Part shown: positions 2,745-21,240 of the stretch, piece by piece | Layout: every line of letters starts with the position of its first letter | Position numbering within the stretch: the stretch's first letter is position 1 | Virus record (IMG/VR): IMGVR_UViG_3300048548_000807 | Location: 1 to 21,343 of that record | Source of the DNA: a virus | Length of the DNA: 21,343 nt | Strand: one strand, 5' to 3' | Position numbers and translations under genes: made by a program | The notes under the pieces: generated by a model | Databases searched by the model: none | What the model was told of the DNA's origin: nothing | Seen by the model: the letters and a program-made list of their open reading frames with translations, nothing else

Positions 2745-3356
2745 TTAATTTGTACAAGTTACCTCATATTCCTCCCAACCTTTAGTTGGCTTTTCATTTG
2801 GGAATACAAATTTTCTACAAGTACCATCATTTTCAAAGTAAATATGTTTGGTCATAACACTTGGAACTGATGCACCTGTCGGTAAAACTTCATATCCATC
2901 ATTGAATATTAATTCAACTGTAATTGTTAAATTTTGTTCATCATCCCATATTCTCTCTTCTTGTTCTAACATTCTCCACTCACCTCTGTTTAGATTTTGT
3001 TCTTGTAAAGCACAGTTTAGATATGAAAAAGTTCCATATAAGTTGTCTTGAGTATCTGAAAATGTTGCAGCTGGTGCTAAATGTCCTTTATCCCATATGT
3101 TTGCATAATAATCATGTTTGTTTGATGTAATAACTCCTGCTACAAGGTGGAAATCCATGTTTCCTCTATCTACATTCTTCGGTCTGTTTGTTGAAGTATA
3201 AATTAATTTTACTGGTTGTTCCAATATTTCATTGTACCACACCTCAAATACTTCAGTTTCGATGTGAACACTTTCCCTTCTCTCTTGTGCAAGGATTTCG
3301 GGAGTACTACAACTTGTAAGAAGTAGTGATATTATTAATAATTTTAAATATTTCAT
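2745..3356 (-). CDS. Predicted lipoprotein DNA/RNA non-specific endonuclease (203 aa)
   Basis: This protein matches the Serratia-type NUC (beta-beta-alpha metal) nuclease family. It carries the signature DKGHLAPA with the general-base His92 (motif D89-K-G-H92). It also has the downstream block ending LNRGEWRMLE, where Asn123 and Glu131 sit at the spacing of the metal ligand Asn and the conserved Glu of Serratia nuclease. The N-terminus is a lipoprotein signal: hydrophobic residues 3-13, then the lipobox L13-T-S-C16. The mature enzyme is therefore expected to be lipid-anchored outside the cytoplasm, facing periplasm or medium. It would cut DNA and RNA without sequence preference. At about 190 mature residues it is close to the minimal domain. 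It has its own upstream TATTTATA motif at 3389. Roles such as degrading DNA of a second incoming phage or salvaging nucleotides are inference. Confidence 0.85.
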   Translation of the reverse strand: MKYLKLLIISLLLTSCSTPEILAQERRESVHIETEVFEVWYNEILEQPVKLIYTSTNRPKNVDRGNMDFHLVAGVITSNKHDYYANIWDKGHLAPAATFSDTQDNLYGTFSYLNCALQEQNLNRGEWRMLEQEERIWDDEQNLTITVELIFNDGYEVLPTGASVPSVMTKHIYFENDGTCRKFVFPNEKPTKGWEEYEVTCTN

Positions 3357-4023: not shown

Positions 4024-5280
4024 TTAAACTTCCCCATAATTTTTACCCCAATCTGCTTTGACAGGAAATCCATAACTTTCGAGAACGGATTTAATCTTTT
4101 TAATAGTTTCAACCTCAGATTCATCAAACTCGAATAAGAATGAATCATATGTGTATAATATAGGAAGTGGAAGGTCGTTTTCTTTCAGTTTATTCAATAC
4201 CTCAATATTGAACTCAGTTTCAGTTGCTTGAAGAATATAATTAAAGAACTTTTGAGCATTTGGTTTTTCAATCCATCCTAATGGGATTTTTCTACCTTTA
4301 GGAGTTTGGATAAAACCATTCTTTATCGCATCTAATTGTAGTTTGTTTATAAACTTATCTACCTTATCAAAGAATGGAATCTTTCTATCCTCATCGGATA
4401 CTCCCCCATAAAGGATTTTAAATGTTCTTCCTTTGGATTCATCATACGAACAACCATATTGGTCTGCTAACCATTGGTGAACCGATGTATCGGGTAGTTT
4501 GTATTTAATCAACTTGGCGATAATCCTAACATGATACGCATCGTAATCGAATTGTAAGAACAACTTACCATCTCTCGGTACAAACGATTCTCTCGAACCA
4601 TCTTTCTTGTTAAGAGCGGAAAAGTTTACACCACCATGTCTATTGGAAGGTCTACTTGTTATGGTATAAGGGTTATATTCGGTGAATACATTCCCTAATG
4701 GTATATGTTTTTGGTGATTAGGCCATCTATCAAGAAATTTTTCTGTATCGACCCGAACCCCCAATCGTTCTAACTCTGAAAGGATAGGAATCATCGTATC
4801 ATCTATCCAAGAATTGATAGTACTTAAGTTCCAATCATCTCCAATACCCCTTAATACTTCACCAAACTTCATTATAGGGATAGATGTACCTAAATTATCC
4901 CTCATACCCAAACGATAGTAAAAGTTCGTTAAAACCTCTAATTTCGATTCTATATCATATAATTGAAATTTATCAAAGAATAAGGAAGTTTGCACATCTT
5001 TTAGATTGTTTACCTTAATATCGGTTTGTAAGAAACCTTTTTTGTTCCAAATCCACTTTGTTTGATTCGAGGTTGATAAGTCTATTTCTAACTTTTCACA
5101 ATCATTATGATTAAATGGAAGTATGAAATCAAGATTTCGAAATTGGACATACAAAAATGACAACCTATTATTTATAGGATGTCTTTCCAAATCTTCCCAA
5201 ATCGGAATAATCTTAGATTCTTCGTTATTCCAATATTCGAGAAATTGGTCTTTCTCTTTATTAGTTTCTACTATAATCAT
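4024..5280 (-). CDS. Compact divergent family A DNA polymerase (418 aa)
   Basis: Polymerase motifs appear in order: the TSR210 block (TGR of Pol I), motif A FDYDAYHVR with catalytic D245, motif B K283-GRTF287KILY291G, and motif C TYDS with catalytic D379. Several usual residues differ. The steric-gate Glu of motif A is His250, the O-helix Arg is Tyr279, and motif C reads YDS instead of HDE. The helix before the thumb (ILSELERLGVRVD, about 166-178) is followed after only about 30 residues by the TSR block, leaving almost no room for the thumb, which takes about 100 residues in Pol I. The N-terminal part resembles a 3'-5' exonuclease fold without a DxE motif, so proofreading is probably absent. 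The gene start overlaps the stop of the 45-aa gene (ATGA), and the sulfotransferase gene follows at 3 bases. Polymerase identity is well supported; activity is uncertain. Confidence 0.85.
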   Translation of the reverse strand: MIIVETNKEKDQFLEYWNNEESKIIPIWEDLERHPINNRLSFLYVQFRNLDFILPFNHNDCEKLEIDLSTSNQTKWIWNKKGFLQTDIKVNNLKDVQTSLFFDKFQLYDIESKLEVLTNFYYRLGMRDNLGTSIPIMKFGEVLRGIGDDWNLSTINSWIDDTMIPILSELERLGVRVDTEKFLDRWPNHQKHIPLGNVFTEYNPYTITSRPSNRHGGVNFSALNKKDGSRESFVPRDGKLFLQFDYDAYHVRIIAKLIKYKLPDTSVHQWLADQYGCSYDESKGRTFKILYGGVSDEDRKIPFFDKVDKFINKLQLDAIKNGFIQTPKGRKIPLGWIEKPNAQKFFNYILQATETEFNIEVLNKLKENDLPLPILYTYDSFLFEFDESEVETIKKIKSVLESYGFPVKADWGKNYGEV

Positions 5281-6702: not shown

Positions 6703-7458
6703 TTAAGAAAGTTTAGCTGAACCTACATAAATAGGTTTTCTTTTCATCTGAGCACCAGCCGCGAAATTAGCACCTTCTTTTATGTAACCAGTTAAGAACG
6801 CTCTTCTGAATCGTTTTGAATTGTTTGGTTCTGAACCATGTACTACATTTGAATGAAGTAATGCAACCTGTCCTTTTCTTAGATAACCATCTATATGTGA
6901 AAAATTGTGGTCTTTTGGTAATACACAAGGTTTACCTCTTTCACTTCTCCAATTCTTTGGATTTGAACCTGCTCTCACTTCATCTACCTCAATTGGTAAC
7001 CTTCCTAATCTGTGTGAACCTTCTAAATACCAAACAGAACCATTATTTGGGTCTGAATTATCTAATGCTACTGAAACATTTATTATTTCATTAGTATTAC
7101 ATTGTGTATAAAATATATTTTGATGCATATCTCTACCCAATTGTCCTGGTGGTTTAAAATATGCCCAAGTTTGAACACCTAATATCTTAGAATTCATTAA
7201 AAATTCACAAGCTTCGATTACTTTAGGATGTTTCATTAATCCATCAAGTACTTTAGATTCTTTATGTGGATACATATATGGGTCGTAATCTCCCCATTCA
7301 CCTTCTGTATCATTCTCTTGTCTTTTAACTCTGATTCGTTCTAATTCATCTCCTATAGCATCAGCTTCTGATTCTGTTAAGAGATTTAAAATAGATACAC
7401 CTTTGTATCTCCAATCAAATTGTAATTGTTGTTTTTCTAGCTCGGTAAGATAATTCAT
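6703..7458 (-). CDS. Phytanoyl-CoA dioxygenase (PhyH)-like protein (251 aa)
   Basis: This belongs to the PhyH-type Fe(II)/2-oxoglutarate oxygenases. The core block is FKPPGQLGRDMHQNIFYTQ with H112, then VALDNSDPNNGSVWYLEGSH, then the distal HSNVVHGSEPN with H207, and the 2-oxoglutarate-binding Arg in KRFRRAF (R216-R219 region). The metal triad of this family is normally HxD...H, but here the second ligand is Asn114 (codon AAT), giving HxN...H. Apart from this the family blocks and length are normal. The family hydroxylates varied small molecules, lipids or peptides, and the substrate here is unknown. The gene follows the 128-aa tail-region gene by 28 bases, and no promoter of either type is clear before it. 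It may be a read-through member of the late transcript. Confidence 0.85.
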   Translation of the reverse strand: MNYLTELEKQQLQFDWRYKGVSILNLLTESEADAIGDELERIRVKRQENDTEGEWGDYDPYMYPHKESKVLDGLMKHPKVIEACEFLMNSKILGVQTWAYFKPPGQLGRDMHQNIFYTQCNTNEIINVSVALDNSDPNNGSVWYLEGSHRLGRLPIEVDEVRAGSNPKNWRSERGKPCVLPKDHNFSHIDGYLRKGQVALLHSNVVHGSEPNNSKRFRRAFLTGYIKEGANFAAGAQMKRKPIYVGSAKLS

Positions 7459-15221: not shown

Positions 15222-15425
15222 TTACTTTGAATACTTCTTAAGTATAGAGTCTAATCTTTCTCTATCTTTATTGATTGTATTCATTATTTTAATTGCATCT
15301 TTTGGTAATCCTTTTTTCTTAGCTTGAGCTAGAAATCTGTTTGCAGTATTTTTTTTTACACCATCAAAGAATGCTGATATAAAATTAGATACACCCTCGT
15401 TAATAATTTTTTCTTTTTTAGTCAT
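15222..15425 (-). CDS. Unknown small basic protein (67 aa)
   Basis: A helical, Lys-rich protein (MTKKEKIINEGVSNFIS, then LAQAKKKGLPKDAIKIMN). I do not recognise it. It has its own TATTTATA motif upstream, and AGGA lies 8 bases before the ATG. The tape measure gene follows after 17 bases, so it is the first gene of the tape measure transcript. Its place between the chaperone frames and the tape measure suggests a small assembly factor, by context only. Confidence 0.75.
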   Translation of the reverse strand: MTKKEKIINEGVSNFISAFFDGVKKNTANRFLAQAKKKGLPKDAIKIMNTINKDRERLDSILKKYSK

Positions 15426-15465: not shown

Positions 15466-15498
15466 CAAAAAAAAAGTGAAGAATTTTACTTCTTCACT
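15466..15498 (-). terminator. Intrinsic terminator at the end of the chaperone frames
   Basis: On the minus strand a perfect 9-bp stem (AGTGAAGAA / TTCTTCACT, loop of 6) is followed by nine T. The stem includes the stop codon of the downstream chaperone frame (15486-15488). The motif at 15453 restarts transcription. Confidence 0.85.
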
Positions 15499-15761
15499 CT
15501 TACATTTGGACTTCGGGCTGAACTTTTCTTGTTCACCTTATCCATCTCTTCCTTTTCCTTTTTCTTGGCCTCTAATAGTTTTTTGAAATAGAAATTTCTC
15601 CAATGGATTGGCATAAAGTAAACTTCAGACCAAGTAAATCCATTACCATAGTTAACCATTTCCCAAATTTGGTTATGTAGTTGGATGCTATAATTACTCG
15701 GAAGGGTAAAAAAACCCAACCCCAAAGGGTATATCCAACTCCTCCTTCTCTCCTGTAACAT
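15486..15761 (-). CDS. Second frame of a tail assembly chaperone, probably made by frameshift
   Basis: This frame overlaps the last 68 bases of the gp26-like gene. If started at ATG 15761 it gives 91 residues, but the first 17 (with RRRSWIYPLGLG) look like an out-of-frame reading of the other gene, and no ribosome site precedes the ATG. The part after the overlap looks like genuine protein: NQIWEMVNYGNGFTWSEVY, then MPIHWRNFYFKKLLEAKKK and a Lys-rich tail. The seven-T run at 15708-15714 allows a +1 or -2 shift from the upstream frame into this one, giving a fusion of about 323-324 residues. The place between tube and tape measure matches gpE' of P2 and gpT of lambda. Independent translation remains possible. 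Confidence 0.7.
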   Translation of the reverse strand: MLQERRRSWIYPLGLGFFTLPSNYSIQLHNQIWEMVNYGNGFTWSEVYFMPIHWRNFYFKKLLEAKKKEKEEMDKVNKKSSARSPNVRVKK

Positions 15762-16571: not shown

Positions 16572-17060
16572 TTAGAATTCTAAAATTGCGTAATCATAAG
16601 ATAATGTTAATGTGATTTCGGCTGGGTCATTAGAAGACCAATCTAAATCATTAAACACTGCGTTATTGATAAATGCACCTTTAAGAGTCCATTGTTCAAT
16701 CTTATCACCAACTGGTCCTAATAGGTAACATTGGATATCTTTCTTATAGAAATCTGCGTATCCATCTCTACCTGTTAGAGATTCATGTGATGTTCTCACC
16801 CATTCCATTACAGATTGAGCTCCACTTGGAACGATTGGGTCAAATAATGTAATTTCTACATCTTGCCATTCACCCTTACCTTTAAGTTTTCTTTTAACAT
16901 TAATGTGGTCTAGGGTAATAGTTTCAAATTGAATTGAAGGTCTATTTGCTGTTTTGATAAGATATGAAGGGATACCATCGATTTCCATGATGAATCTATT
17001 CTTCATCTTCGGTTCGAAGTTGGTATAAAACATATCGTTAAATTCTAATACTTCTGCCAT
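16572..17060 (-). CDS. Tail tube protein, T4 gp19-like (162 aa)
   Basis: The protein matches the T4 gp19 tube family in length (T4 gp19 is 163 residues) and pattern. It shows the NRFIMEIDGIPSYLI strand pair, the INVKRKLKGKGEW turn, the DVEITLFDPI strand, and the closing strand pair DPAEITLTLSYDYAILEF. The tube forms stacked hexamer rings inside the sheath and serves as the DNA channel. It has a real Shine-Dalgarno site (AGGAG at 17074-17070, 9 bases before ATG), as does the sheath gene, fitting a highly expressed protein. A strong terminator follows. Confidence 0.92.
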   Translation of the reverse strand: MAEVLEFNDMFYTNFEPKMKNRFIMEIDGIPSYLIKTANRPSIQFETITLDHINVKRKLKGKGEWQDVEITLFDPIVPSGAQSVMEWVRTSHESLTGRDGYADFYKKDIQCYLLGPVGDKIEQWTLKGAFINNAVFNDLDWSSNDPAEITLTLSYDYAILEF

Positions 17061-19899: not shown

Positions 19900-21240
19900 C
19901 TAACTAACTGTAAAAGTAAGTGTACTACTATAATTACTTAATAATCCATTTGAGTTATATTGTCTTACTCTTGCATATCTTGTTCCAGTACCTATATCAA
20001 ATGTTCCACTATCAGTAGTCATTACCATAGTAGCCTCAGACCATTGAGTTTGGTTTATTTCAAGACTACTAAATCCACTATCAGTTGCAACTTGTACATC
20101 ATAAACATTAGTTGAAGTATCATTTCTTGTCCAAGCTAATGTTAATGTTCCATTTGTCCATGTAGGTGTATCAGGTGCAGCACCTGCAGTTTCATCTGAA
20201 TGTGAATTTCCACCTTTGTTGTGAGTTATGTACCCATTAACTAAATATGTATCATTTGTTTCAACATCAATTGAAACTATTTCAGATGTTTTAGTTATAA
20301 CATCAATTGAAGCGATATCAACCTCAGTAATAACTCCATCTATTTCTCTAATTAGTTTATCATCTGTTGCTATGTTAAACATTTCTAAAAATCTATAATT
20401 TCCATCAGATGCATCTTTTACTAACATTGGATGTTCACCAGTTGCAGTTACTTGACCACCATTAATATCATAATGTCTATTAGAGAATGAGTAAATTAAA
20501 CTTGTAACAGTAACATCTTGTGGTGTTGTAGATAAAGTATCAACCGACCAATTTAAAAATTGTGATTCATCTTCACCTAATGTGTTTATTGCAAATCCTC
20601 TTAATACATCTCCTTCTTCTAAATCACCAACTTCTATAATAGTTCCATCAGCTAAAGTTACTTCAGAATCTATTGTTAAACATAAAGATGTTGAGTTACC
20701 ATCATAAGAATCTACCGAATGAACTGTTTTATTTATAGCAGTATTATAATTTGTTGCATGGTCGTTAAATCCATCAGCAAATGTTACTGATAATGTATGT
20801 GATTGTGCACCTAAAAGTGAAGCTTGTGAACTTGCACCTTGTGGATTCATAGCACCAACTGTAATAACTGCTGTATAATCTTGATTGGCTGCAATACTTA
20901 AATATCCTGCAGTATCTCCTGCAGAATTAAATGTTGGTGAAACTGCCCAAGTAAAGTTTTGATATCTATCTCTTATTGATGTTCCTGAAGTAGGACTTGT
21001 GATTTCACCTCCTGCTCCTCCAAATCCAAGTGTGTAAGTTTCGTTTGTAGCTTCTACTGCATATGTAAATCCACTAATTGAACCAATAGAATCAATACCG
21101 AAATCAGAAAATTTTATATTATCTCCCGCACTAAGACCTCCACCACAAATGGTATTGAATGATACATTTGCATCTTTTGTATTACCAGTTGCTCCTGCTA
21201 AATTATTTAAACTGAGTGTTTCTCCTGCTGAAATTGCCAT
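19900..21240 (-). CDS. Virion-type protein with internal Hint (intein-like) domain and FN3-like end (446 aa)
   Basis: Three parts are visible. Residues 1-186 are Gly/Ser/Thr-rich and strand-rich (GETLSLNNLAGATG, GGLSAGDNIKFSDFG, then a region ending in DGNSTSL). Residues 187-341 are a Hint domain: C187 opens block A (CLTIDSEVTLADGTIIEV), TGEHPMLV with T267 and H270 is block B, and the end is TYLVNGYITHN with H340-N341. Residues about 355-446 look like a fibronectin type III domain (PDTPTWTNGTLTLAW, then ARVRQYNSNGLLSNYS). No homing endonuclease is present. The residue after N341 is Lys, so normal splicing is unlikely but cleavage at either end is possible. A TATTTATA motif at 21261 and AGGA 10 bases before the ATG support late expression. 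The position in the tail cluster suggests a surface or fibre protein. Confidence 0.85.
   Translation of the reverse strand: MAISAGETLSLNNLAGATGNTKDANVSFNTICGGGLSAGDNIKFSDFGIDSIGSISGFTYAVEATNETYTLGFGGAGGEITSPTSGTSIRDRYQNFTWAVSPTFNSAGDTAGYLSIAANQDYTAVITVGAMNPQGASSQASLLGAQSHTLSVTFADGFNDHATNYNTAINKTVHSVDSYDGNSTSLCLTIDSEVTLADGTIIEVGDLEEGDVLRGFAINTLGEDESQFLNWSVDTLSTTPQDVTVTSLIYSFSNRHYDINGGQVTATGEHPMLVKDASDGNYRFLEMFNIATDDKLIREIDGVITEVDIASIDVITKTSEIVSIDVETNDTYLVNGYITHNKGGNSHSDETAGAAPDTPTWTNGTLTLAWTRNDTSTNVYDVQVATDSGFSSLEINQTQWSEATMVMTTDSGTFDIGTGTRYARVRQYNSNGLLSNYSSTLTFTVS
20218..20682 (-). other. Hint (intein-like) domain inside the 446-aa protein
   Basis: It encodes residues 187-341: block A with C187, block B TxxH (T267, H270), block G with H340-N341. 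At 155 residues it is a mini-intein-sized unit. The +1 residue is Lys rather than Cys, Ser or Thr, as in bacterial intein-like domains that cleave rather than splice. Confidence 0.75.

Follow-up and report, generated by a model that had tools for sequence, protein, structure and literature searches.

The virus genome IMGVR_UViG_3300048548_000807, a complete 21-kb record in IMG/VR whose whole length of 21,343 nucleotides is referred to here as the window, carries a gp26-like gene that very probably gives rise to two tail assembly chaperones (TACs), a short form and a fused form of 323 residues, by a +1 shift of the ribosome at a run of seven T close to its 3' end. On the evidence of sequence comparison this is the best explanation of the locus, and it agrees with the initial annotation of the stretch, which had predicted a short and a roughly 323-residue fused chaperone. 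Comparison of relatives shows the relation of the two reading frames, constraint on the extension, a TTT_Y slip site, avoidance of T at the base preceding it (base -1), and a conserved GGAGG farther upstream. In the proposed mechanism, most ribosomes would stop at 15694 and release TAC-N, the gp26-like product of 254 residues, and a fraction would move ahead by one base at TTT TTT T, with peptidyl-tRNA-Phe re-pairing from TTT to the overlapping TTY. The shifted ribosomes would then read 73 more codons to give TAC-NC, the 323-residue counterpart of T4 gp51. By analogy with lambda gpG and gpGT, the probable role of TAC-N and TAC-NC is to cover the tape measure protein and bring in subunits of the tail tube.

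Overlapping frames and identity of the locus

On the minus strand the 254-residue frame (16458-15694) and a second frame of 91 residues (15761-15486) overlap by 68 nucleotides (15761-15694), as had been noted initially, and the second is offset from the gp26-like frame by +1 (equivalently -2). The 3' end of the gene reads GGG TTT TTT TAC CCT TCC GAG TAA, with the T7 run at 15714-15708 and the stop four codons later, as the initial annotation had described. The 254-residue protein matches PF12322 (T4_baseplate) over region 13-125 with 46.5 bits against a curated cut-off of 24.5, and its AlphaFold2 model (predicted local distance difference test score, pLDDT, 89) resembles gp26-type hub proteins in a viral structure library, e.g. 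that of SP-15 (template modelling score, TM, 0.83). The gene sits between a tail tube gene and a tape-measure-like gene, the slot expected of a TAC-N/TAC-NC pair, and by this position and its homology to T4 gp26/gp51 the locus is predicted to be such a pair.

The extension was folded separately from the 254-residue part and is predicted to form three helices (pLDDT 78). When the two frames are fused, the phrog_150 match, which otherwise ends at profile position 232, runs past the junction to position 252. Taken alone, the extension gave weak matches in family searches, including, for 3 of 72 members, phrog_634 (the C-terminal part of gp51), and in structure searches P-HM1 gp51 and a Moogle tape measure chaperone, both with E above 1. 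Among solved TAC structures, that of HK97 (2ob9) was matched weakly (E 1.9-3.5, probability 0.18-0.33). Comparison of the fused alignment with T4 gp51 by hhalign found nothing, and a sequence search against solved structures gave no match.

Conservation of the +1 frame

Relatives were grouped into three clades of non-redundant sequences, comprising relatives of the window protein from metagenomic contigs together with Microcystis phage Mel-JY01 (clade A, 76 sequences), relatives of the Flavobacterium phage immuto protein (clade B, 65 sequences), and relatives of the Streptomyces phage BRock protein (clade C, 12 sequences). The frame relation of the window recurs in clades B and C, both of which are distant. 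Among the 80 relatives that the gene recovered from IMG/VR, the +1 frame continues beyond the stop except on contigs that end early, and across clades A-C it is open through the junction and past the zero-frame stop in 153/153 sequences, reaching 60-101 codons beyond that stop in complete loci. Such regularity goes far beyond chance. Over the first 55 codons, stops number 0 in 7,830 codons of the +1 frame, compared with 965 in 7,975 codons of frame 0. The ratio of nonsynonymous to synonymous substitution rates (dN/dS) of the extension in the +1 frame is 0.11 in clade A and 0.08 in clade C, below the value for the upstream domain; synonymous changes in the extension are saturated in clade B. 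Read in frame 0 the extension gives dN/dS values of 1.7-1.8, and both non-+1 frames give values of about 1 or more. Judged from the sequences, the downstream +1 frame is a protein-coding extension under strong purifying selection.

The second frame could also be viewed as a separate gene, translated from an internal start with the aid of the upstream GGAGG. The conservation of this Shine-Dalgarno (SD)-like motif and the annotation of Mel-JY01 as two open reading frames (ORFs) would fit such a gene, but it is very unlikely: 57/153 sequences lack any ATG, GTG, or TTG in the open +1 frame leading up to the site (an ATG is present in 31/153), and in most of the 57 the first later start would remove 10 or more codons. 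In many clade A members a +1 stop precedes the T run by only one or two codons, conservation of the +1 frame starts at the slip site, and T4 gp51 shows that a fused form exists. The initial annotation had proposed to check whether the ATG of the second frame is conserved, since a conserved start of its own would speak against frameshifting. The ATG at 15761 is shared by only 16/76 clade A sequences and is thus not conserved, and only 10/76 have any ATG in the open +1 frame preceding the site. Because the frame is open and constrained in all 153 sequences and a start codon is missing in 57, it is interpreted as a C-terminal extension reached by frameshifting and not as a separate gene. In the records of immuto (L083), SP-15 (L085), and BRock (L089) the fused chaperone is unannotated, with at most a truncated separate small ORF within the extension, and the long form is missing from the annotations of all isolate records examined.

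Slip sequence and direction of the proposed shift

At the junction, the 153 sequences carry TTT TTT T (107), TTT CTT T (29), TTT CTA T (4), or TTC TTT T (1), and the remaining 12 have TTT C with Arg or Gln in frame 0. TTT is followed by T or C in every one of them, so that re-pairing of tRNA-Phe at +1 would be possible throughout, and the same TTT_Y rule fits Bacillus SP-15 and Listeria LIS04. In clade C, TTT occupies 12/12 sites even though only 44% of Phe codons there are TTT. The T run on which the initial annotation based the shift is found in 80/80 IMG/VR relatives, in one of them as TTC TTT T, but an intact T7 is not required, as TTT CTT, TTT CTA, and plain TTT_C also occur. This variation bears on transcriptional slippage, in which mRNAs with altered T counts would be translated normally into the fusion. 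The window and many relatives do carry the seven consecutive T that such slippage would use, but the run itself is not kept, being replaced by TTTCTTT in 29 sequences, by TTTCTAT in 4, and by TTTC only in clade C with the same frame relation, and this origin of the fusion is highly improbable.

The initial annotation had left the shift as +1 or -2. A -2 shift of the ribosome would take tRNA-Phe from the second TTT back two bases within the T7 run and give the fusion an extra Phe; the run allows this re-pairing in the window and in most clade A and B relatives, and a -2 shift is known for the tail chaperone of Mu (PMC5009743). Such re-pairing is, however, impossible in 16/153 sequences, namely 11/12 of clade C (CTG/CTA TTT C), the TTT CTA variants L102, L113, L124, and L127, and L017 (TTC TTT T), and by the same reading it fails in LR756508 (TTT CTA TTC) and in Streptococcus phage GXN1 (TTC TTT CGT), whereas TTT_Y at +1 explains every case by one rule. 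Because these 16 relatives can re-pair at +1 only, a +1 shift is clearly preferred and a -2 shift appears improbable; the frame relation common to both stands as first described. Base -1, directly before the first TTT, is T in 0/153 sequences, compared with about 38% T among third bases in clades A and B. A T at this base would create the -1 heptamer T_TTT_TTY, which is missing from all +1 clades.

Elements upstream of the slip site

At positions -38 to -22 relative to the site, 5 nucleotides (nt) or more of SD complement are present in 88, 74, and 83% of clades A, B, and C, respectively, and in 0-26% of control windows. This SD-like region is strongly enriched in synonymous G, as at codon -10 of clade A, where GAG makes up 53/60 Glu codons compared with 24% overall, and a GGAGG located 26-29 nt upstream of the site is common to the +1 clades. 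A hairpin of 5 bp or longer can form between GGAGG and site in 70, 78, and 75% of clades A, B, and C, whereas synonymous codon choice would predict 35, 41, and 13%, and the corresponding frequency is 4% in the -1 clade of T4-like phages described below. Downstream of the site, no consistent signal of RNA structure was seen (mean z between -1.0 and +0.3). Both upstream elements may stimulate the +1 shift or suppress -1 slipping. In 70S translation, upstream hairpins adjoining the ribosome, in this case synthetic ones, promote +1 shifting and suppress shifting by -1 (PMC6321510). A stimulatory role for the 5' hairpin is therefore plausible by analogy, and we regard it as a good lead and not as an established fact.

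The wobble pair -16/-7 of the hairpin showed association by Fisher test in clades A (p 4e-8) and B (p 5e-4) when kinship was ignored. It was dropped as proof of the hairpin, as placing the changes on the tree gave 9 compensated double changes versus 15 that break the pair.

Several observations weigh against a +1 ribosomal shift aided by these elements. The sequences in clades A-C share ancestry, so that the counts overstate their independence, and the extension alone has no significant family or fold match of its own in sequence and structure searches. The codon in the A site (TGG, TAC, CGN, CAG) does not stand out as slow, and -2 re-pairing is possible as well in 137/153 sequences, the window included. 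Covariation in the hairpin is weak, its pairing register differs between subclades, and the copy in the window has only 4 bp. The SD-like element is also much farther upstream than the known elements of RF2 and dnaX.

Gene neighbourhood

The features of the locus and its two flanking tail genes are listed in Table 1. The 836-residue protein gave no match in a Pfam profile search, and its gene is called the probable tape measure gene because of its position, as genes in the same slot are annotated tape measure in immuto, SP-15, and LIS04.

Table 1. Positions of the predicted chaperone locus, its signals, and the adjoining tail genes in the window
Feature	Position	Strand	Remarks
TAC-N, gp26-like zero-frame product, 254 residues	15694..16458 (including stop)	minus	PF12322 E=4.7e-12; phrog_150 E=6.8e-16
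Slip site TTT TTT T (TTT_Y)	15708..15714	minus	Preceding base G; TTT_Y in 153/153 relatives
Zero-frame stop TAA	15694..15696	minus	Four codons (TAC CCT TCC GAG) past the T run
TAC-C, predicted +1-frame extension, 73 codons + stop	15486..15707	minus	Fusion TAC-NC = 323 residues
Shine-Dalgarno-like AAGGAGGAG	15739..15747	minus	GGAGG core 15745-15741 ends 26 nt before first slip codon
Putative 5' hairpin ACCC-TTTG-GGGT	15719..15730	minus	4 bp here; ends 4 nt before first TTT
Tail tube gp19 homologue	16572..17060	minus	Directly upstream of the gp26-like gene; PF06841 E=3.7e-10; phrog_4542 E=1.3e-29
Probable tape measure protein, 836 residues	12694..15204	minus	Downstream of the gp26-like gene; identity from position

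Between the chaperone and tape measure genes lies a 67-residue ORF (15222-15425, minus), and Mel-JY01 has an ORF of similar size and unknown function in the same slot (L082, 5039-5254); the 67-residue ORF may be a further conserved small tail gene. Four other genes, all on the minus strand, were recorded elsewhere in the window. A 446-residue protein (19900-21240) contains by eye a Hint/intein-like stretch (CLTIDSEVTLADG ... VNGYITHN) and had no match in a Pfam search at E<=0.01. A phytanoyl-CoA dioxygenase-like protein (6703-7458; PF05721, E 2e-21) is encoded near the baseplate genes, and a 418-residue protein (4024-5280), shorter than usual, has a partial match to family A DNA polymerase that falls below the cut-off (PF00476). 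A DNA/RNA non-specific endonuclease (2745-3356; PF01223, E 2e-17) has a lipoprotein-like N-terminus (LLTSCS).

Comparison with known systems

Tail chaperones of different phages use -1, -2, and +1 shifts (reviewed in PMC5009743). The chaperones of lambda (G/GT), P2 (E/E'), and Mu resemble the locus of the window in lying between the genes for tail tube and tape measure and in pairing a short with an extended form, but lambda shifts by -1 and Mu by -2 (PMC5009743), and the Mu-type re-pairing that the window would allow is not family-wide, given the 16 relatives in which it fails. No sequence similarity to these chaperones turned up, although no search was aimed at it. The tail chaperone of HSTV-2, a haloarchaeal myovirus, is described as very likely using a +1 shift (PMC5009743), but it belongs to an archaeal virus. 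The +1 frameshift of RF2 (prfB) likewise has a pyrimidine-U-U in the P site followed by U; CUU_U occurs also in clade B, and UUU_U is present in a few prfB genes (PMC5009743). The SD of RF2 is next to the E site, whereas that of the +1 clades is far upstream.

Within the T4 family itself, gp26 corresponds to the short form and gp51 to the same domain with a C-terminal extension, both belonging to PF12322, but T4 encodes them as two separate genes without frameshifting. Frameshifting in the gp26 family of T4-like phages was proposed in 2022 by Vladimirov et al., as cited in PMC12846349 and PMC10274946; according to these citing papers, Vladimirov, Gautam and Davidson regarded the proteins as the tail assembly chaperones of T4-like phages, with T4 using separate genes. 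Our observations agree with that proposal as cited, since the cyanophages P-SSM2 and S-PM2, together with HTVC008M, KVP40, phiM12, and PhiW-14, have one gp26 gene each with a similar-looking extension in the -1 frame at T_TTT_TTY, and T4 has two genes. The initial annotation had considered a frameshift of this type in a T4 gp26-family protein unusual; in view of the 2022 proposal and these six phages, frameshifting itself is not, and the forward direction is what remains distinctive. Relative to the 2022 work as cited, the new elements would be this direction, the avoidance of T directly before the slip site, and the more distant SD with its hairpin, although the +1 groups may already stand in the full account of Vladimirov et al.

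For comparison, a -1 set (n=82) was assembled from the six phages, further P-SSM2 relatives, and three sequences of the LR756511 type. The last of these, the LR756511 family (L189-L191), had been tried as +1 relatives and was moved to the -1 set because its extension lies in the -1 frame at T_TTT_TTC. In this distant gp26 family (L088, L189-L191) the T_TTT_TTC stands about 40-75 nt ahead of the zero-frame stop, and the overlap is longer than in the other groups.

The -1 T4-like chaperones resemble those of the window clade in the PF12322 domain, the single gp26 copy, the Phe-Phe shift site a few codons before the stop, and a C-terminal extension of similar length and pattern. Unlike the window clade, they carry the extension in the -1 frame at T_TTT_TTY, have their SD some 10 nt ahead of the site, and lack a 5' hairpin; the window clade has its extension in the +1 frame, never T at -1, and an SD 26-29 nt upstream. 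Base -1 is T in 82/82 of the -1 set versus 0/153 in the +1 clades, and the window, with G at this base and its extension in the +1 frame, falls outside the -1 type. The SD spacing of the -1 clade is close to the 8-11 nt known to stimulate -1 shifts (PMC6321510). A tentative possibility, which we hold with less than even confidence, is that the T4-type chaperone switched shift direction in evolution, -1 (T_TTT_TTY, SD at 10 nt) and +1 (TTT_Y) being alternative states of one homologous site; the T at -1 would have been lost, and roughly five additional codons would have moved the SD to 26-29 nt and created a hairpin behind the ribosome. If so, this hairpin would be the natural equivalent of synthetic hairpins which, placed upstream, promote +1 shifting while suppressing -1 shifting (PMC6321510). 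The +1 clades would supply many naturally occurring forward shift sites from bacterial viruses, which require no stop codon and have candidate upstream stimulators, and homologous genes that do the same job by opposite shift directions would make it possible to ask which bases set the direction.
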